Source: Thermovirga sp. (GTDB lineage Bacteria > Synergistota > Synergistia > Synergistales > Thermovirgaceae). From it: 36,686 bases of DNA. Position numbers and translations under genes: made by a program. Below, one piece after another: positions 6,585 to 22,264 of this stretch (position 1 is its first letter; every line of letters begins with the position of its first letter). The notes below the pieces were generated by a model. That model saw nothing but the letters and a program-made list of their open reading frames with translations. It was not told where the DNA came from and made no database searches. Location: positions 1 to 36,686 of the forward strand of contig NZ_JACDOB010000015.1 in NCBI RefSeq assembly GCF_017656375.1, given 5' to 3'.

Positions 6585-6633
6585 AAAAGGCTCTTAGCTT
6601 TATTTCATCATTAGCAATAAGGTGTTAAATACG

Positions 6634-6663
6634 CTGGGCCAGATAGTGTTCTGGTCCAGTTTT
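6634..6663 (+). terminator. Intrinsic terminator or attenuator between the M23 gene and pyrG
   Basis: A 10-bp stem (left arm CTGGGCCAGA at 6634-6643, right arm TCTGGTCCAG at 6650-6659, one G-U pair) with a 6-base loop, followed by TTTTGATT. It lies 37 bases before pyrG. It can end the rho-M23 transcript or act as a pyrG leader attenuator. Confidence 0.6.
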
Positions 6664-6669
6664 GATTAA

Positions 6670-8301
<1,632 letters not shown>

Positions 8302-8314
8302 GGAGGGGTAAATA

Positions 8315-9352
8315 ATGAGAAAAGTATTATCGCTTGTGTGTTTAGCGCTTATATTGTTGGTTCCTCAGGTTGTAGTAGCTGAAGAAGCACCACTGCCTTT
8401 GAAAGCACAGGAAAAGATAGAGATCGCTCTATATGGGGAAGCTTTGAGTGGTGGCCTTATCGAGCGACTTGGGAAGGTTGAAAAGGACCTTTTTGGTAGG
8501 GAACTTCCGGGAAGCATATCGGAACGGCAGAGCGGGCTTTTGAATTTCATAGAAAAGGGTACCCTTGGGAATCCGTCCATGTTGTTCAAGCTTTCAGTTG
8601 CCGAGTGGGCAGTGAATCACAAGATAAGCCCCAAGAAGCCTGCAAGTTCTAGGATAGATGATTTGGAGACCTTGCTGGAGGGGAAACCGCAAGTTGATAA
8701 GCCCCTTGCCATGAGGCTTGAAAGGATGTTGTCCTTGCTCTTCCCCGAACCTGTAAAGTGGGTTGAGGTAGAACTACCTGCTAACAATGTTTTTAAGGTT
8801 GCATTTACTGAAACCATACGACCTTCAGAGGCTAAAAAAGGCGACCAGGTAGAACTAACCTTGGCACAGGATTTAATAGTGGATGGGAGCTTGGTCGCGC
8901 CAGTGGGGAGCATGGTACTTGCGGAGATAGACAGCGTCAAGCCTCCCAGGAGCTTCGGTAGGCCTTCGGAAATAAATTTTGCGTTCAAGCATTTGGTTCC
9001 ACTAGGGCCAGAGGTCATTCCTGTATTTATGGGAGATGAGGCCATAGCGTCAAACAAAAAAGATAAAACGATGGCAATAGCTGCTGGGACAAGCGTTGTT
9101 GGGCTGATTGCATTAGGGCCAGTAGGGCTTGCCGGAGGCTTTTTTGTCAAAGGGAACGCAAAGGAAATTCCTGCAGGTACTGCTGTGTACATTGAGACGT
9201 CGCAAGCTATGACAGTCCATGCCTGGCCAGTCCCCCCAGGTCTTGAGGGTATGATAAAAGAAGCCGAGGGTCTGCCTGGAACCGACGAAAATGCCACAGA
9301 TGAAGAAGGATCGCTCTCTGAAGGGGGAGATGTAGATGAGCAGGAAGATTAA
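8315..9352 (+). CDS. Unknown exported protein with N-terminal 20-residue repeats
   Basis: I cannot assign a family. A signal peptide of about 22 residues ends at VVVA/EE. Residues 38-57 and 58-77 form two tandem 20-residue repeats (ALYGEALSGGLIERL and DLFGRELPGSISERQ; shared pattern L-Y/F-G-x-x-L-x-G-x-I/L-x-E-R). A weaker third copy ends near LAMRLERMLSLLF at about 131-143. A beta-rich region of about 155-240 follows, then a Gly/Ala-rich hydrophobic stretch at about 253-278 and IPAGTAVYIET. The C-terminal 30 residues are acidic and low-complexity. It lies 13 bases after pyrG, overlaps the next exported gene by 17 bases, and sits upstream of lptC-lptD, so an envelope role is inferred from context only. 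Confidence 0.8.
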   Translation: MRKVLSLVCLALILLVPQVVVAEEAPLPLKAQEKIEIALYGEALSGGLIERLGKVEKDLFGRELPGSISERQSGLLNFIEKGTLGNPSMLFKLSVAEWAVNHKISPKKPASSRIDDLETLLEGKPQVDKPLAMRLERMLSLLFPEPVKWVEVELPANNVFKVAFTETIRPSEAKKGDQVELTLAQDLIVDGSLVAPVGSMVLAEIDSVKPPRSFGRPSEINFAFKHLVPLGPEVIPVFMGDEAIASNKKDKTMAIAAGTSVVGLIALGPVGLAGGFFVKGNAKEIPAGTAVYIETSQAMTVHAWPVPPGLEGMIKEAEGLPGTDENATDEEGSLSEGGDVDEQED

Positions 9353-9767
9353 AAAGATAATAGCCACTTGCGGCCTATTCCTTACCCTAATCGCAGGAGC
9401 TGCGGCAGCTGTAGATTTGGGTGACCTTATCGGGGTTGTTGGCGGAGGACTGATCGTCAGTGCTCTGGGAGACCAGCTAAATGATTTCATAAACACTATA
9501 ACGTTCAATAAAGGAGTAGGGGTAGAGGAGGAGACCAAGGTCGTACCTATTGTTTCAGTGGGAAGCGGTGTTGCTATAGGTGCTGCACAGGTATCAGGAC
9601 CTAAGGATGCTGTCGCAAAGACCCAGGCTGTGGCTCAGCTTGAGGTGACATTTCAGGACAGGATAAGGATAAAGGTACTGATACCGATAGATTCTAAAAA
9701 CCCGCTGGAGCGTTTCAGAAGGGTTCAGAAGGTTGGTGTATCAGCCATTATAGATTATAAGCTTTAA
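9336..9767 (+). CDS. Unknown small exported protein
   Basis: 143 residues with a signal peptide ending near GAAAA/VD at about residue 25. The mature part opens with a Gly-rich hydrophobic segment (DLIGVVGGGLIVSALG), then a central Ala/Gly/Ser region and a C-terminal half that looks like beta strands (RIRIKVLIPI, VGVSAIIDYKL). No family recognised. The start codon lies inside the previous exported-protein gene (17-base overlap), so the two are translationally coupled and probably act together. lptC follows after 21 bases. Context suggests an envelope or outer-membrane function; nothing in the sequence itself proves it. Confidence 0.75.
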   Translation: MSRKIKKIIATCGLFLTLIAGAAAAVDLGDLIGVVGGGLIVSALGDQLNDFINTITFNKGVGVEEETKVVPIVSVGSGVAIGAAQVSGPKDAVAKTQAVAQLEVTFQDRIRIKVLIPIDSKNPLERFRRVQKVGVSAIIDYKL

Positions 9768-9788
9768 GAGATAATTAGCTAGATTGAT

Positions 9789-10322
9789 ATGAATTGGAAG
9801 AAAGCCTTGCCACTTATCTTAATAGTACTTGTTGCCCTGTGGGTCGTCATGCTTTACAGGGACTTGAAGCTCGTACCTAGTGAGCGGGGAAAGGAAGAGA
9901 CTCCTGATGTAACCCTGGAAAATATAGAGGTCCAAAGGGAAATTTCAGGAGATTTTTGGACCCTGCAAGCTGAGCGGGCCGAAAGGTTTGGAAATAAGAC
10001 CAACCTTGAGGTAATAAAGGTGAAATCTGCTACAAAAGAAGGGCCTCTGTGGTTTATGGATGCTCCACGGGGTACTGTTACCGATGATGGGAATTTAGCT
10101 GAGCTGTGGGAAGTGAAAGGTCATGCTGAAAAGTTTACTCCTGCTTTCAAATGGAGTGGAAGGCACGCACTGTGGGATCAAAAGGGAAAGCGATGGCTTT
10201 TCCCTGAAGGGTTAACCATTCAGGGTGAGGATTTCTTGGCGAAAGGAGCACGGGGTGTGGTGGACATGAGTGGGAAAATAACTTTGGAAGATGGAGCATA
10301 TGCAAGATGGGAAACACAATGA
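9789..10322 (+). CDS. lptC: LPS export periplasmic protein LptC
   Basis: Bitopic inner-membrane protein that passes lipopolysaccharide from the LptBFG transporter to LptA in the periplasm. It has one N-terminal transmembrane segment (about residues 6-23) followed by a periplasmic beta-jellyroll domain of about 150 residues with alternating strands typical of LptC/OstA. The total of 177 residues is close to E. coli LptC (191). The call rests on architecture and on the 16-base overlap with lptD. The ribosome site is weak (AAGAGA region), suggesting coupling to the upstream exported-protein genes. No lptF or lptG is in the window. Confidence 0.85.
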   Translation: MNWKKALPLILIVLVALWVVMLYRDLKLVPSERGKEETPDVTLENIEVQREISGDFWTLQAERAERFGNKTNLEVIKVKSATKEGPLWFMDAPRGTVTDDGNLAELWEVKGHAEKFTPAFKWSGRHALWDQKGKRWLFPEGLTIQGEDFLAKGARGVVDMSGKITLEDGAYARWETQ

Positions 10323-11977
10323 TGAAGCTGTCAAGTTGTCTGATTGTTGCCTTTGCCTCCCTTATGCTTTTATTTCCTTGCATTGGCGTAGGGGAAGCCA
10401 CATCTGGTGGTAACGTGATCCTTGAGGGAGATAAGGTGGTATATGAACAAGCAACTGACACGGCTTATGCTGAAGGCCACGTTAAGATGAAATATGCAGA
10501 TATTCGAGTGTGGGCGATAAAAGCCACCTACCATGTCAAGCTCAACAAAATTGAGGCATTAGGCACTAAGGACGCCCCAATAGTCCTTTTGCAGGGAGCT
10601 CAGAGGATGGAAGGCCAAAGGTTAGAACTTGATCTTGCCAGCGGGGAAGGTTCAATCAGTGAAGCGTATGCCAGTTATCCTGCCGAAAATGGTTTTGCAT
10701 ATGCCAGAGGCGGAAAGGTGAGTACCATAAAAACTCAATCCCTGAAAAGTTCCGGGTGGGTTAAAAAGTCTCCTTCGCCTTCGAAGATAAAGAGTGAAAG
10801 GGTGTACAAGTGGGAAAATACGAGTCTGACCACTTGTCCTGAGCCTGTTCCCCACTACAGCTTAAAGACCAAAAAATTGGTAGTGTTCCCAGGTTATAGG
10901 GCAATAGTTACAAAACCTAGAGTATTTTTGAAGGAACACTTTCTTTTTACTTATCCCTTTGATTACATAGTACCCCTTACCGAAAAAGAGGAGGCCTCTC
11001 CCTTAATGCCCACGCTTGCTTATGACTCTGACAAGGGAGTTGGGATTTCTATAGGTACCACGTATGAAGCAGGAGAAGTATCAGGCAGATGGAAAGCTTA
11101 CTACTGGTCAAAGAAGGATTTTGAGGGAACCCTTCAGGCGAATTGGGCTTTTAATGACAATTTGAAGTTTTTTGCGGAGGAAGATTACAGCTGGGACTCT
11201 GATAGGGATGAAAAACGTTTCCGGCCCAAGTGGGGAGCAATATATGACGATGGAAATTGGTATGCAAAGCTCTTGTGGTCCCAGGCAGAGAACGTGACAG
11301 TGGAAAAAGCGCTGGGGGATACTTTTAAAGGTGTCCTTTGGAGAAAGCCAGAATTTGAACTTCGGACTCCCTATTACGAGCTTGAGGGCATAAAAAGCAA
11401 GTTGGCCTTATATGGCCGGTGGGGAGACTATGAGACATTGGCGTACGACGGAAGCAATGAAGTCTCAATAAAGAGGATAGCCTTCGGAGCGGCTCTTTCG
11501 GGTTCCACAACTATAGGAGACGTAAGGCCTTACTGGTATGTGAGCCAGTGGCACTACGATTACAGTGGAGCAGGAGACTCTCAGGATACAACGTACGTTA
11601 AAGGTGGATTGTCATGGAGTGTTGGCAAGGTTAATTTTTCAAGCACCTGGGTAAGGCGCTGGGTATGGGGAGATTCTCCTATGTCGTGGGACGATTATTC
11701 CGATTCAGAGTCGTTCTACCAGAAGGTCTCTTTCCCGTTAAGTGAAGCCTGGACTGCGACTGTGAGAGGTGGATATAATCTAAGAACGGAGGACCTGGAA
11801 GAGATGTATTATCGTCTTGGTTATTCCAATCACTGTTGCTACAGGTTTGACGTGGAATATAGGGATGACCTAACCAACGAGAACGATGACTGGGCCGGCT
11901 TTGTGTTCGTGTTAGATGCGTTTCCCAGCAACCCCTTCTTTTTCAACACCAGGACTATTCAGGAGTTTGATAAATGA
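10307..11977 (+). CDS. lptD: LPS-assembly outer-membrane protein LptD (OstA), short form
   Basis: Outer-membrane translocon that inserts LPS into the outer leaflet. A signal peptide (about residues 1-31) is followed by an OstA-type jellyroll domain (about 36-125) and a long barrel region rich in aromatic strands. The CC pair at 510-511 (SNHCCYRFDVEYR) matches the conserved C-terminal Cys pair of LptD. At 556 residues it is far shorter than E. coli LptD (784), as in other deep-branching diderms. The mature protein contains only one more Cys (177), so only one inter-domain disulfide can form. ATGs at 10319 and 10322 are alternative starts; the first overlaps the lptC stop as ATGA. The end overlaps ddl by 4 bases. 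Confidence 0.88.
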   Translation: MGNTMMKLSSCLIVAFASLMLLFPCIGVGEATSGGNVILEGDKVVYEQATDTAYAEGHVKMKYADIRVWAIKATYHVKLNKIEALGTKDAPIVLLQGAQRMEGQRLELDLASGEGSISEAYASYPAENGFAYARGGKVSTIKTQSLKSSGWVKKSPSPSKIKSERVYKWENTSLTTCPEPVPHYSLKTKKLVVFPGYRAIVTKPRVFLKEHFLFTYPFDYIVPLTEKEEASPLMPTLAYDSDKGVGISIGTTYEAGEVSGRWKAYYWSKKDFEGTLQANWAFNDNLKFFAEEDYSWDSDRDEKRFRPKWGAIYDDGNWYAKLLWSQAENVTVEKALGDTFKGVLWRKPEFELRTPYYELEGIKSKLALYGRWGDYETLAYDGSNEVSIKRIAFGAALSGSTTIGDVRPYWYVSQWHYDYSGAGDSQDTTYVKGGLSWSVGKVNFSSTWVRRWVWGDSPMSWDDYSDSESFYQKVSFPLSEAWTATVRGGYNLRTEDLEEMYYRLGYSNHCCYRFDVEYRDDLTNENDDWAGFVFVLDAFPSNPFFFNTRTIQEFDK

Positions 11978-12930
11978 TGGATGCGTTAAAAGATATTAAA
12001 GTTGGGGTTGTCTACGGAGGAGATAGCCCGGAAAGAGAAGTATCCCTGGCTAGTGGCAGTGCTGTAGTAGAAGCCTTTGAAAAACTAGGGGTGGATGTTG
12101 AGCCCCTTTTAGTTTCATCTGCTTTGGACGCTTTATCCAAGGTACAGGCTTCTCAAAGCGATGTTTTTTTTATAGCCCTTCACGGTGGTTGGGGTGAGGA
12201 CGGTAGGCTTCAGGGGGCTTTGGACCTCTTAGGTAAAAAATATACAGGTTCGGGACATAGAAGTTGTGCCCTGGCGATGGACAAAAAAGTTAGCAAGGCC
12301 ATTTTTGAAAGGTGCGGTATTCCAACGGCCCCTTATATTAGCATTAATGCTGCTGATCTCTGTAGTGGCTTTGAGGAAGAGCTAAAAAGGCTTTTGGCCC
12401 TTTGGGGAATTATGGTTGTAAAACCTTCAGGGTGTGGAAGCACAGTTGGGGTTAACATAGTCCAAGACATAAAAAGTGCGCTGTCTGCGATCAGAGATGC
12501 TTCCACCTATGATAAGGACGTATTAATTGAGAAATACATTCCAGGTAGGGAAATAACTGTTGCAATTTGGGAAGACAAAGAAGAAGTTATGGCCTTTCCA
12601 GTTATAGAGATTATTCCTGAAAAAGGGTTTTACGATTATAGGGCAAAGTACACTCCTGGCGTCACGAGGTACAAGTGTCCGGCGCATCTTCCAAAGGAAA
12701 TTGAAGTCCGAATCAAAGAGGTCGCTGCAGGAGCTCATAGGGCTCTTGGGTGTTGTGTCTATAGTAGGGTCGATATTAGGCTCTCTCAAGAAGGAACCCC
12801 TTATGTTTTGGAGGTAAACACAGCCCCAGGTATGACCTCCACCAGCTTGGTCCCTAAGGCTGCTTTGGCCTTTGGATGGTCTTTTCCAGAGTTAGTCTCA
12901 AAAATAGTTATAAAGTCTTTGGGTAAATAA
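11974..12930 (+). CDS. ddl: D-alanine--D-alanine ligase
   Basis: ATP-grasp enzyme joining two D-Ala for the peptidoglycan pentapeptide. 318 residues, usual length. Family signatures are VYGGDSPEREVSLASG near the N-terminus, ALHGGWGEDGRLQG, KPSGCGSTVGV, EKYIPGREITVAI, the FYDYRAKY loop and VLEVNTAPGMTSTSLVPKAA at the C-terminus. FYDYRAKY matches the D-Ala-specific loop, with no sign of a D-lactate or D-serine variant. The start overlaps the lptD stop (ATGA). It is the last gene of the pyrG-lptCD operon, and its stop runs into the bidirectional terminator. Confidence 0.97.
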   Translation: MMDALKDIKVGVVYGGDSPEREVSLASGSAVVEAFEKLGVDVEPLLVSSALDALSKVQASQSDVFFIALHGGWGEDGRLQGALDLLGKKYTGSGHRSCALAMDKKVSKAIFERCGIPTAPYISINAADLCSGFEEELKRLLALWGIMVVKPSGCGSTVGVNIVQDIKSALSAIRDASTYDKDVLIEKYIPGREITVAIWEDKEEVMAFPVIEIIPEKGFYDYRAKYTPGVTRYKCPAHLPKEIEVRIKEVAAGAHRALGCCVYSRVDIRLSQEGTPYVLEVNTAPGMTSTSLVPKAALAFGWSFPELVSKIVIKSLGK

Positions 12931-12960
12931 TCAAGGGGGCAGGATCCTGCCCCCTTGATT
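12929..12960. terminator. Bidirectional terminator, 32-bp perfect palindrome, between ddl and greA
   Basis: Two 16-base arms (left arm AATCAAGGGGGCAGGA) meet with no unpaired base and GGATCC at the centre. It begins inside the ddl TAA and ends at the last base of the greA stop, with T-rich flanks downstream on both strands. It can serve both convergent genes. Confidence 0.92.
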
Positions 12961-18248: not shown

Positions 18249-18911
18249 ATGCGTAAAAGGACAGTACTTTTGGCAATTATTTTCTTGATGTTCTTGGCAA
18301 CATGTGTTTTTTCCAAAGGAGCGATGGAGCTGTTTGCAGACAAACTTCTGTACAATCCCGAGGATGGAACTATAACCGCTGAAGGGAATGTTAATGTAAA
18401 AGGGGACGACATGTTTGCCGAGGCTAAGAGGGGAAAAGCTTCTGCTGATGGAAGCAAGATGGAGCTAGAAGAAAAAGTCATTATTAAATCTGTAAAAGAC
18501 CCTATGCTGATCGAGTGCCAAAGAGCGGAGGCTGTGCTGGTTAAGGGCGGAAGAGAGATAACCTGTTTAAAGGTAAAGAGGTTCCTGCATGAAACGAAGG
18601 GAGTTACTATGAAAGCAGAAAAAGTCATAGGGCTTCTCAAGGAAGGTGTTTTTGATTACATAAAGGCTTTTGGCAATGTAGAGGCCAATATGAAAGATAA
18701 AAATGGTAAGCCGATAAAGGTGACTTCTCAGAGTGCTTATTACGATAGCAAGGAAGGAACAGTGCTTTTTAAAGGGCAGGCTGTCGCAGTAACTGAAGAC
18801 AGGATAGTAGAAGCCCAGGAGTTTACATATTACCTTGCCGATGGGAAGATAAAAGCCGAAGGATCGACTAAGGTCATCTTCAATCTAGGCAATCAGGAGA
18901 AAACGGAATGA
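18249..18911 (+). CDS. lptA: LPS transport periplasmic protein LptA (OstA-like)
   Basis: Periplasmic bridge protein for lipopolysaccharide. A signal peptide of about 22 residues (MRKRTVLLAIIFLMF start) is followed by a repetitive beta-jellyroll of OstA type. Typical phrases are FADKLLYNPEDGTITAEGNV, VTSQSAYYDSKEGTVLFKG and FTYYLADGKIKAEGS. Its 220 residues are a little above E. coli LptA (185). The last four bases overlap lptB (ATGA), which fixes the assignment. lptC and lptD lie about 6 kb upstream in another operon. The ATG is preceded by GAAGGGTGAG at about 18231-18240. Confidence 0.88.
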   Translation: MRKRTVLLAIIFLMFLATCVFSKGAMELFADKLLYNPEDGTITAEGNVNVKGDDMFAEAKRGKASADGSKMELEEKVIIKSVKDPMLIECQRAEAVLVKGGREITCLKVKRFLHETKGVTMKAEKVIGLLKEGVFDYIKAFGNVEANMKDKNGKPIKVTSQSAYYDSKEGTVLFKGQAVAVTEDRIVEAQEFTYYLADGKIKAEGSTKVIFNLGNQEKTE

Positions 18912-19636
18912 GCGAAAAGTACTTGTGGGCAAGAGGCCTTTCTAAGTCATACAAGGGCAGGAAGGTAGTTTCTTCTGTGGACCTTACCGTAAGGCAGGGG
19001 GAGATCGTAGGCTTATTAGGGCCCAATGGGGCAGGTAAAACTACCACTTTCTATATGGTTCTTGGATTGGTCAAACCTGATGGGGGGAGAGTCCTTATTA
19101 ATAATGAAGATGTAACGGATATGCCCATGTACAAGAGAGCGAGAAGTGGCATAGGCTATCTCCCCCAGGAAGCCTCTATTTTCAGGAACCTGACGGTAAA
19201 GGAAAACCTTGAACTTGTTTTAGAGGAGAACGGCATAAGGGGCAAAGAAAAAGAGGAGAAAGTAGATAAACTAATAGATGAATTCAATATTGGCCATGTT
19301 ATTGACATTCCTGGATACGCCTTGAGTGGGGGAGAGAGAAGAAGGGTGGAGATAGCCAGGACTTTGGCAATAGAGCCGGCATTTATATTGCTTGACGAGC
19401 CCTTTAGCGGCATAGATCCCATAGCAGTTTACGATATCCAGCAAATAATACTGGAGATAAGGACCAAAGGCTACGGCATACTTCTCACAGATCACAGTGT
19501 TCGAGAAACCCTGGCTATAACAGATAGGACCTATCTTATCCACCAGGGCAAGATCCTGATAGAAGGAACTCCTTCCGAGGTTGCCGAGAGCGAAGTGGCC
19601 AGGAAATTTTATTTGGGTGAGCGTTTTTCTTGGTGA
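18908..19636 (+). CDS. lptB: LPS export ABC transporter ATPase LptB
   Basis: Cytoplasmic ATPase powering LPS extraction with LptF/LptG. 242 residues (E. coli 241). Walker A GPNGAGKTTTF is at about 38-48, the Q-loop in LPQEASIFR, signature LSGGERRRVEIARTLA, Walker B FILLDEPFSGIDP and the switch histidine in LTDHSVRE. The closely spaced LSGGERRR and PFSGIDPIA phrases are LptB-like. It is coupled to lptA by ATGA. The 3' end overlaps the convergent hydrogenase-protease gene by 28 bases, with no terminator between them. Confidence 0.95.
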   Translation: MSEKYLWARGLSKSYKGRKVVSSVDLTVRQGEIVGLLGPNGAGKTTTFYMVLGLVKPDGGRVLINNEDVTDMPMYKRARSGIGYLPQEASIFRNLTVKENLELVLEENGIRGKEKEEKVDKLIDEFNIGHVIDIPGYALSGGERRRVEIARTLAIEPAFILLDEPFSGIDPIAVYDIQQIILEIRTKGYGILLTDHSVRETLAITDRTYLIHQGKILIEGTPSEVAESEVARKFYLGERFSW

Positions 19637-20132: not shown

Positions 20133-21698
20133 ATGTCTTCCCGTAGCTCCAGTATGGTTCGCCACTCGATAAAGATGATGGCCGGGACTCTTGTGAGCAG
20201 AATCTTGGGCCTGATAAGGGAGGTCCTCATAGCTTCCCTTTTTGGAGCCACAGGCAAATTAGATGCCTTTTTAGTAGCTTACACGTTAGCAAATCTTACA
20301 AGACGCCTCTTGGCCGAAGGTGCTCTATCGGCCGCTTTCGTTCCTGTTTTTTCCCAGCTTCTAAAAAAAGAAGGCAAAAGCCGGGCTTTTGTTCTGGCAT
20401 CTCAGGTTTTATCCATATTGATAGTTGCAAGTATATTTGTAATACTTTTGGGTGTTTTCTTTGCCCCGACTTTGGTCTCTATTTTGGCGCCGGGTTTTGC
20501 TTCTTTGCACTCTGCTTTAGCTTCACAGCTTACCGTCTTAATGCTGCCTTTCCTTCTATTTATATCTGTTGCGGCGCTTGCTATGGGGATATTGAATTCA
20601 CTCGGGTGTTTTTTCGTGCCCGCAATAGCTCCTGCACTCAGCAACGTTGTCTTTATTATCCTGGTGGTCATTTTAGCACCAAAAATGGAAATTTACAGTT
20701 TGGCGTGGGCTGTTCTTGTTGGAGGGCTGGCCCAGTGTGCCCTTCAGTGGTTCTGGATCAAAAGGTGGGGATTTACATTATTGCCTACAAGGCCTGACAT
20801 GAAGGACGATTCCCTCAAGAGGACTTTGCGCCTGTTTTTGCCCTACGCTGCGGGGCTTTCTATAACTCAACTCATTCCTGTGTTTAGTAGAGTCTTAGGT
20901 TCCTTCCTTCAGGAAGGTTCTATTTCGGTTTTAAATTATGCTGATAGGGTGCTTCAGCTGCCTCTAGGGCTATTTATAATAGCCATTTCCCAGGCGGTAT
21001 TGCCCCTTTTTGCGCATCTTGCCATGGAAGATGAAGCTTCTTTCAAAAAAGGAATAGAGGAAGCTTTGCAATTTGCCATCTTCATAGTTGCGCCGGTAGT
21101 AATAGGTATGGTCATGCTGAACAGGGAGATAGTCCATTTTTTGTTCTTTAGGGGGGCCTTCAGTGCCTGGGCTTGGAGAGGGACGTCTTTAGCCTTGATG
21201 CTATTTGTATTAGGCCTTCCTGGAACTTCATGCCTTACAGTACTCATGAGAGCTTTTTACGCCAAGGGTTATTCACGAGAGCCATTGATACTTTCTGCTT
21301 TCAGCGTGGTGCTTTATGTTGCGTTTGGTGTCTTGCTGATGAAGCCCTATTCATATGGAGGGCTGGCTGCAGCTTCTTCCGTTTCCTTTACTTTGACCGC
21401 TATTCTGGGAGGTGCTCTTCTCGATAAAAGGCATATAAAGGTTCGCCCCTTTAGCTTCTTATGGCTTGCTAAAATCGTCCCAAGCCTTGCCTTAATGGCC
21501 GGGACGGTGTATTTTCTCAAAGAACTGTGGGGTTATCCATTCAGTGGAGCTTTTATATATAAAACCCTCTGGATGCTTTCTGTGATCTCGGCAGGGGCGT
21601 TATCTTACGGGGCTGCAACTTGGATTGCCGGGTGCAGGGAGTGGAAATGGGTAATTGAGGCTTTAGGGAAAAAGGAAAGTAAAAGCGGTGAAAAATGA
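20133..21698 (+). CDS. murJ: Lipid II flippase MurJ (MviN)
   Basis: Polytopic membrane protein of the MOP superfamily that moves lipid-linked peptidoglycan precursor across the inner membrane. 521 residues with about 14 hydrophobic segments. The N-terminus shows the MurJ signature SRILGLIREVLIASLFGAT and the DAFLVAY and RRLLAEGALSAAFVPVF phrases. AAGAGGAGG precedes the ATG. It is followed by an unknown exported protein whose frame begins within its stop, then by a Cys-rich mini-protein and tsaD, probably one transcript ending at the 23495 hairpin. Confidence 0.96.
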   Translation: MSSRSSSMVRHSIKMMAGTLVSRILGLIREVLIASLFGATGKLDAFLVAYTLANLTRRLLAEGALSAAFVPVFSQLLKKEGKSRAFVLASQVLSILIVASIFVILLGVFFAPTLVSILAPGFASLHSALASQLTVLMLPFLLFISVAALAMGILNSLGCFFVPAIAPALSNVVFIILVVILAPKMEIYSLAWAVLVGGLAQCALQWFWIKRWGFTLLPTRPDMKDDSLKRTLRLFLPYAAGLSITQLIPVFSRVLGSFLQEGSISVLNYADRVLQLPLGLFIIAISQAVLPLFAHLAMEDEASFKKGIEEALQFAIFIVAPVVIGMVMLNREIVHFLFFRGAFSAWAWRGTSLALMLFVLGLPGTSCLTVLMRAFYAKGYSREPLILSAFSVVLYVAFGVLLMKPYSYGGLAAASSVSFTLTAILGGALLDKRHIKVRPFSFLWLAKIVPSLALMAGTVYFLKELWGYPFSGAFIYKTLWMLSVISAGALSYGAATWIAGCREWKWVIEALGKKESKSGEK

Positions 21699-21721
21699 GA
21701 AACAAAAGGAGGCAAGAGGTG

Positions 21722-22264
21722 TTGAATAAAAAAAGTTTTCTTACAATTATATTAGCTTGTGTGCTTGTTTTTGCCCTCTGTGGGGGAGCCGTTGCGGCGC
21801 AAGGAGATCTTGAAAAGGTCCTTAATGACAGGGTAGCGACTTTGTATGTTGAAGGGCAGCCATTGGGGAACATGATAATAGGTGCTCGGGCCAAGCTGGA
21901 ATTTATTTATGTTGATGGAGTGCTGGTGAGAGCTGTAAAGGATGATGAGCGAGCGCCATCTTGGCTAGAGTGGCATGTCAACAAGTACGGATCGGACGAA
22001 GCAAAGGGGAAAAAGCTGTTTATTTTGAGAGTAGAGACATTTAAGCCCTTTACTTTGATGCCTGAAATGATTGCTGTAAATGGCTTTCAATTAAAGGAAG
22101 AGAACATTCTTACAAGGAAGGAATTTGCTCCTTTGGGCGAGCTTCCTAGCTCTTTCAAGGGTGCCATGGTGCTGGCGGTCCCAGGGGACCTTGTAAAACC
22201 TGACAAGAAAGTGAGATTTAGCTGTGGGGGTGATGAGGCAGTATGGGTTGTGCCAAAGAAGTAA
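21722..22264 (+). CDS. Unknown exported protein
   Basis: No family recognised. From TTG 21722 the product is 180 residues: a signal peptide (NKKSFLTIILACVLVFALC...AVA/AQ, about 27 residues) and a mature domain of about 150 residues with mixed strands. One Cys occurs in the mature part (FSCGGDEAVW, near the end). The frame is open from an ATG at 21695 that overlaps the murJ stop, but AAAAGGAGG at 21704-21712 lies inside that extension and serves GTG 21719 (6 bases) or TTG 21722 (9 bases), so I prefer the later start. The 3' end overlaps the Cys-rich gene by 22 bases. The position after murJ suggests an envelope role; this is inference. Confidence 0.75.
   Translation: MNKKSFLTIILACVLVFALCGGAVAAQGDLEKVLNDRVATLYVEGQPLGNMIIGARAKLEFIYVDGVLVRAVKDDERAPSWLEWHVNKYGSDEAKGKKLFILRVETFKPFTLMPEMIAVNGFQLKEENILTRKEFAPLGELPSSFKGAMVLAVPGDLVKPDKKVRFSCGGDEAVWVVPKK

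Follow-up and report, generated by a model that had tools for sequence, protein, structure and literature searches.

A gene pair of no recognized family lies between pyrG and the LPS-transport gene lptC in Thermovirga sp., and it raises the question of what two exported-type proteins, here called P1 and P2, contribute beside genes that serve the outer membrane. How LPS is inserted in diderms outside the proteobacterial model is an open question: an eLife 2016 study reports no clear LptD/E in diderm Firmicutes and leaves a non-homologous system open (PMC5007114), and another study, whose tree sets Synergistetes aside, reports that the atypical diderms it covered lack lptD and lptE (PMC8871954). 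The preliminary description of the window (the whole stretch of 36,686 nucleotides that we analyzed) had proposed that P1 and P2 act together at the cell envelope, possibly in outer-membrane assembly specific to this lineage. The reading we came to prefer, with a probability of roughly 45%, centers on P1, which may be an outer-membrane-anchored, VirB10-like scaffold for outer-membrane/LPS assembly, its fold being predicted and its role inferred.

Gene layout around P1 and P2

Both ORFs (P1, 345 aa; P2, 143 aa) were confirmed in the window and overlap by 17 bases, as had been described, within the gene order pyrG–P1–P2–lptC–lptD-like–ddl. The features of this region are:

6633..6660, + strand: terminator-like stem 5' of pyrG, 11 pairs, 6 of them G-C, tail TTTGATTAAG
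6700..8301, + strand: pyrG, CTP synthase, the usual neighbor upstream of P1 (NCBIfam 853.5 bits, cut-off 308)
8315..9352, + strand: P1, exported-type 345-aa protein with a helical domain and a VirB10-like barrel (predicted)
9336..9352, + strand: P1–P2 overlap of 17 bases, from the ORF coordinates
9336..9767, + strand: P2, exported-type 143-aa protein, optional
9789..10322, + strand: lptC (PF06835 28.6 bits, cut-off 21; TIGR04409 32.9 bits, cut-off 38)
10307..11977, + strand: divergent lptD-like gene with a weak OstA-type N terminus (LptD_N below cut-off)
11974..12930, + strand: ddl, D-alanine--D-alanine ligase (Pfam and NCBIfam)
12929..12960, + strand: long terminator-like stem 3' of ddl, 14 pairs, 8 of them G-C, tail TAAATTTTTA

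The identities of PyrG and Ddl were clear in Pfam and NCBIfam, and LptC was backed by Pfam, yet fell under the NCBIfam cut-off. The product of the lptD-like gene scored 13.5 bits against LptD_N (cut-off 20.4 bits, E 0.088) and 16.4 bits in a genome search. The pyrG–lptC–lptD–ddl context given in the preliminary description thus holds clearly for pyrG and ddl and by Pfam for lptC, and only weakly for lptD.

P1 begins 13 bases after the end of pyrG, P2 ends 21 bases before lptC, and lptC overlaps the lptD-like gene by 16 bases, which in turn overlaps ddl by 4 bases; intergenic gaps across the operon therefore span −17 to +21 bases. A terminator scan found no terminator-like site on the + strand from 6661 to 12727. 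Since the whole scan returned 12 such sites where 11.2 would be expected, we give weight only to the two long stems that frame the operon. With these gaps and these stems, the earlier suggestion of one transcript from pyrG to ddl is plausible at the level of sequence.

A purine-rich ribosome-binding-type site precedes each of P1 and P2, and each protein starts with a signal-peptide-like stretch lacking a lipobox (both read from the sequence); in each, this start is also the most hydrophobic 19-residue stretch. Neither protein matched a family in Pfam or NCBIfam at E≤1, which bears out the description of the pair as belonging to no recognized family, and a search of PDB sequences gave nothing usable (best E 0.12).

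Elsewhere in the window, we noted a second lpt pair at 18249-19636, consisting of an lptA-like gene, which exceeds the LptD_N cut-off in two stretches, and then a gene that by reading is of lptB type. A nameless 143-aa exported-looking protein is encoded at 2553-2984, and its place before tal/rho is kept in many Synergistota loci. A 189-aa exported-looking protein without a Pfam match is encoded between murJ-like and tsaD-like genes at 21695-22264.

P1 keeps its place across Synergistota

A protein search found P1 homologues in 170 of 185 Synergistota genomes, including 113 of the 115 good genomes (≥90% complete, ≤5% contaminated), and P2 homologues in 93 of the 185 (69 of the good ones). Since homologues of both are found this widely in the phylum, we conclude that P1 and P2 are real genes. 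A contig scan of named genomes gave 94 P1 relatives, and the 80 listed are the basis of our named-locus counts; they are assigned to Synergistota, Synergistales, Synergistaceae or member genera, among which we take Candidatus Caccocola to be a member of Synergistota.

Of the testable named loci, 66 of 69 have pyrG upstream of P1, the misses being L127 and L129 (Pyramidobacter) and L171, and 53 of 57 have an lptD-like gene no more than 4.5 kb downstream (misses L148, L155, L168 and L171); these counts omit the named loci with a short flank, 11 of 80 upstream and 23 of 80 downstream. In the deepest family (f11), pyrG and P1 are followed by a gene of 415-427 aa and then by an lptD-like gene, with a small gene at the lptC place in two of three loci (L211 and L213); these middle genes are named by position only.

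A third exported-type protein and a divergent LptD-like gene

Between P1/P2 and lptC, 57 of the 80 named loci (80 of 94 relatives) carry a gene for a third exported-type protein, X, typically of 350-415 aa, which had no match over cut-off among profile families. The operon in the window lacks X, and the X of the same genome is on another contig (L257 1713-2870). There it sits beside flagellin-, csrA-, fliW- and flgG-like genes, which were named by reading.

The weak LptD_N score in the window recurs in related genes. Of seven lptD-like relatives, one exceeded the LptD_N cut-off (L066, 24.5 bits), four matched weakly (L079, L088, L091 and L214) and two had no match (L072 and L212); the lptD-like gene of L320 likewise had no match to LptD_N. 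The reported absence of lptD in atypical diderms may be partly due to such divergence.

P1 outside Synergistota

A profile search of 204 genomes outside Synergistota found full-length P1 in three (E 4.5e-42 to 8.9e-65), and nine weak matches covered the barrel only (E 4.5e-9 to 0.003). With the three full-length finds as centers, we found P1 in 35 of 50 genomes of phylum A, 28 of 39 of phylum B and 4 of 4 of phylum C; we assume that phylum A is possibly Atribacterota and phylum B possibly Riflebacteria. The 28 P1-bearing genomes of phylum B include some with the barrel only and one with the helical domain only. That last case, a 152-aa open frame without the barrel (L313, G439:C262:6157-6537, E 1.1e-9), was seen once. 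Two of the barrel-only relatives in phylum B (L352 and L353) lie directly before very long ORFs, of 2033 and 1533 aa.

For phylum A, we read 21 loci: 20 of the 38 listed places (20 of the 35 genomes), picked by choice, and the locus of genome G325 (L214), also among the 38. X-like and/or LptD-like genes lie downstream of P1 in 12 of the 21, with an LptD-like gene in 11 of these 12; L319 ends after the X-like gene, and the X-like frame of L323 was not called by the gene caller. The other nine loci have an SLH-domain gene just upstream of P1. In one of these nine (L327), the SLH-domain gene, split in two frames, stands behind genes for Omp85/BamA, OmpH, FabZ, an LptB-type ABC protein and DUF3084.

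For phylum B, we read 13 full-length loci and L215, 14 in all, excluding the barrel-only L352 and L353 and the partly covered L354. A similar SLH-domain gene lies about five genes upstream of P1 in 9 of 14 loci, and lgt lies just downstream in 8 of 14. No outer-membrane neighbor was recognized in the remaining five (L349 differs, L343 is cut, and in L340, L344 and L347 P1 was uncalled by the gene caller, these three being scored as misses), nor in the four P1-bearing genomes of phylum C. The SLH domain was confirmed in both genes tested (L215 and L327). P1 thus has outer-membrane neighbors in two of the three other phyla read, some of these neighbors having been identified by inspection or by blastp against window genes instead of profiles.

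Profile comparison showed that the X of Synergistota (58 sequences) is homologous to the X-like proteins of phylum A (11 sequences; probability 97.4, P 9.6e-12). The LptD-like gene of phylum A is linked to the window gene by blastp only (21%, E 7e-9) and has a weak DUF3769 match. Because X is homologous across two phyla, the P1–X–LptD-like row looks like one that is older than Synergistota or was passed between phyla, and we regard X as a better-supported partner of P1 than P2 is. These distributions also removed the idea of a lineage-specific system: P1 occurs in three more phyla, and P2 in scattered others.

The SLH-domain neighbors suggest another role, in which P1 is a general outer-membrane scaffold or tether working with SLH-domain outer-membrane proteins, outside LPS transport. 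We take these proteins to be of the OmpM type, 'porin' being our inference. This role is favored by the SLH-domain genes, which in 9 of 21 phylum A loci stand just upstream and in 9 of 14 phylum B loci stand about five genes upstream, but in Synergistota and in the other 12 phylum A loci the neighbors are lptC, X and LptD-like genes instead. We consider the tether role a serious alternative, although somewhat unlikely. That P1 adjoins LPS-export or other outer-membrane genes in at least three phyla suggests an overlooked part in building the outer membrane, consistent with the scaffold that we prefer.

Predicted structure of P1

An AlphaFold2 model of P1 built from 80 sequences (pLDDT 85.7, pTM 0.81), read together with the sequence, divides the protein as follows:

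8315..8380, + strand: signal-peptide-like stretch, residues 1-22, without lipobox (hydropathy 2.77 over residues 4-22; cleavage putative)
8396..8740, + strand: helical domain, residues 28-142, with six helices in the model and the best conserved block at 61-75, GRELPGS
8762..9232, + strand: barrel, residues 150-306, VirB10-like in the model (Foldseek, VIA-align)
9068..9151, + strand: Gly-rich hydrophobic hairpin, residues 252-279, positioned like the antenna of VirB10 (hydropathy, conservation; low pLDDT)

Two short helices belong to the modeled barrel, as does a stretch of low confidence at about 241-274. In a Foldseek search of the PDB with this model, ranks 1-13 were all chains of type IV secretion outer-membrane complexes (E 6e-4 to 0.032), named CagY, TrwE/VirB10 or TraF-type, pKM101 among them, with poor overall superpositions (TM by target 0.28-0.38, rmsd 13.7-22.4 Å). 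In VIA-align, the 14 best entries were likewise VirB10-family components of type IV secretion outer-membrane complexes, matching residues ~150-306 with Z 9.3-5.8: 6gyb (9.3; 3.5 Å over 118 residues), 7o3j (9.0), 6x6k (9.0), 3jqo (8.9), 8rt6 (8.9), 6x6s (8.8) and 6odi (8.5), with ComB10, Dot/Icm and F-plasmid entries after them, the lowest at 5.8. The VirB10-homologue chain was taken from entry titles, lengths and residue numbers. The aligner's own note cautions that best Z values of 7-8 are often reached by proteins that are not truly related, and only 7 of the 14 rows are above 8. The next row was an amylomaltase matching helices only (Z 4.9), followed by 3.2; the gap between 5.8 and 4.9 makes the VirB10 match credible. 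On the predicted model, P1 therefore appears to carry a C-terminal VirB10 barrel fold. We make no claim that the fold of the helical domain is new, as the fold search barely probes that domain.

The hydropathy of P1 after residue 30 peaks at 1.97 over 19 residues (260-278), and the block at 256-270 is the best conserved in the barrel half (conservation 0.74). A GP(I/L/V/A)G hairpin motif is present in all 80 named Synergistota P1 proteins (80 of 94 relatives listed). All 39 P1 homologues of other phyla have GP.G or NP.G, with GP(I/L/V/A)G after residue 150 in 29 of the 39 and NP(I/L/V/A)G in nine SLH-linked phylum A proteins; the short L352 has GPVG nearer its start (read from the sequence). 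In VirB10, the antenna consists of two helices that form an outer-membrane pore, according to PMC6536674. The P1 hairpin has about 28 residues and is of low confidence in the model. Because this length is short for two full membrane spans, we read it as membrane-entering and not as a proven pore; a pore through this hairpin is doubtful.

Sequence comparison with TrbI

The window P1 had no match to the Pfam TrbI family at E≤1, short of the gathering score of 35 bits. Pfam TrbI matched 2 of 20 P1 members weakly (best 0.00053), one rescanned member gave 0.017 (15.4 bits, residues 157-265 on profile positions 1-99), and a barrel-only relative gave 0.0039. When P1 was compared by profile with 28 true TrbI proteins (from 30 loci, minus L241 and L246, which are broken or in a wrong frame), the result was not significant (P 0.019), and for this reason we do not class P1 in the TrbI family. 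Across 389 genomes, the TrbI model at E≤0.1 listed no P1 locus. TrbI proteins over cut-off were present in 45 of the 389; of these genomes, 34 belong to the Synergistota families f6 and f9 and 11 lie outside the phylum. The window's own genome had no TrbI match at E≤0.1, which means that P1 does not accompany a known VirB10 in this genome.

The same predicted barrel fold, together with a hydrophobic hairpin at the antenna position, would also suit an outer-membrane channel in its own right, through which P1, like VirB10 in type IV secretion, would export a polymer or a protein. We judge this quite unlikely: the ~28-residue, low-confidence hairpin is short for two membrane helices, the neighbors in the window are not secretion genes, and the genome has no TrbI match.

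P2 is an optional neighbor

P2 was absent from all 43 genomes of genus g21, most of which have P1. Counted by eye, P2 follows P1 in 54 of the 93 P2-bearing genomes and was not seen beside P1 in the other 39, which include three without a P1 match (G131, G162 and G166) and one with P2 at a contig end (G043). Where it stands apart from P1, P2 lies among unrelated genes in the loci read. Among the named loci (80 of 94), 25 have P2, each time beside P1; depending on the start chosen, the gaps are −47 to +69 bases. In two loci of family f11 (L089 and L090), P2 is surrounded by catabolic-looking genes, in a cluster that follows an IclR-type regulator (identified by reading).

Outside Synergistota, a profile search found P2 in 8 of 204 genomes, seven of them strong (E 2.8e-23 to 1.2e-44), and we recognized no lpt neighbor in the seven outside loci read, where neighbors were identified by inspection or by blastp against window genes; in L189 and L190, the gene caller kept a frame other than that of P2. 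Homologues scattered without a link to lpt genes thus describe P2 and do not describe P1. The P2 model was poor (pLDDT 57.9, pTM 0.34), a fold search with it gave nothing below E 1.6, and profile comparisons of P2 with P1 and with X were not significant. We conclude that P2 is probably a small exported-type accessory, often adjacent to P1 and not required.

The proposal that P1 and P2 act together is accordingly not well supported. A dedicated two-protein complex specific to the lineage would fit the overlap, seen in the window and some relatives, and the adjacency in 54 of 93 P2-bearing genomes, but many genomes keep P1 without P2, P2 is relocated or alone elsewhere, and both proteins occur in other phyla; we hold such a complex to be improbable. 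Although P2 is small, exported-type and near an lptD-like gene, and lptE is absent from atypical diderms according to PMC8871954 (Synergistetes being set aside in its tree), a role for P2 in place of LptE, the partner of LptD, is very hard to credit, given that P2 lacks a lipobox (read from the sequence), has no match to an LptE family in Pfam or NCBIfam at E≤1, gives a poor model and is missing from 92 of 185 genomes of the phylum.

Discussion

The link to the cell envelope made in the preliminary description is upheld for P1 by its constant place between pyrG and lptC/lptD-like genes in Synergistota, its predicted type IV secretion outer-membrane fold and its outer-membrane neighbors in two of three other phyla. 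In the scaffold model, P1 would be exported by Sec to the periplasm and would sit at the outer membrane. Its C-terminal half, by prediction a VirB10-type β-barrel domain, would place the hydrophobic Gly-rich hairpin in the membrane from the periplasmic side. By analogy with VirB10, the barrels probably form a ring, and this ring would keep the helical domain, acting as a platform, in the periplasm. Judged by gene order in two phyla, P1 would help to build the outer membrane; its most likely task would be to deliver or insert LPS jointly with X and the divergent LptD-like protein. Elsewhere, its neighbor is an SLH-domain gene instead of X/LptD-like genes. P2 would be a small exported accessory, often adjacent and not required. 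Against this scaffold, the hydrophobic start of P1 could be an uncleaved inner-membrane anchor.

A bolder version, which we think unlikely, is that the LPS-insertion machine of atypical diderm phyla contains, as a core component not seen before, a VirB10-type ring working as P1–X–LptD-like, and that the P1 family and the type IV secretion outer-membrane ring share an ancestor, maybe one for outer-membrane building. The P1–X–LptD-like row in two phyla and P1 near SLH-domain outer-membrane genes in a third provide genes to test, and such a row would also show a VirB10 barrel at work outside secretion systems. Among open-access papers, we found none on the P1 family, which does not show it to be unpublished.

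Comparison with known systems

With the Lpt transport genes, P1 shares one gene row containing lptC and the LptD-like gene, whereas P1, P2 and X themselves match no Lpt family. The barrel-only relatives L218, L221, L222, L223 and L225, from other phyla, resemble P1 in a weak P1-profile match over the barrel (E 4.8e-8 to 0.003), but lack its helical domain. Four of these five have Gly-zipper matches, over cut-off in L223 only, and a copper amine oxidase N-terminal domain is joined to the barrel in L222 and L225. Seven of the nine weak barrel-only proteins were scanned, those in G310 and G378 being uncalled by the gene caller. L222 combines a P1-like barrel, the copper amine oxidase N-terminal domain and a weak glycine-zipper match.

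The closest likeness is to the C-terminal domain of VirB10/TrbI/CagY/ComB10/DotG, which P1 resembles in its predicted barrel over residues 150-306 (Z up to 9.3), in a hydrophobic insertion that falls at the equivalent point of the strand order (our own reading of the sequences) and in being of exported type. P1 differs in falling under the TrbI cut-off, in having a helical domain before the barrel and in its shorter hairpin. VirB10/TrbI proteins have an N-terminal inner-membrane anchor and a linker. The hydrophobic start of P1 resembles a cleavable signal (read from the sequence), and the helical domain comes after it. In place of type IV secretion genes, P1 has outer-membrane-building neighbors, and in the window it lies among pyrG, lptC, the lptD-like gene and ddl.
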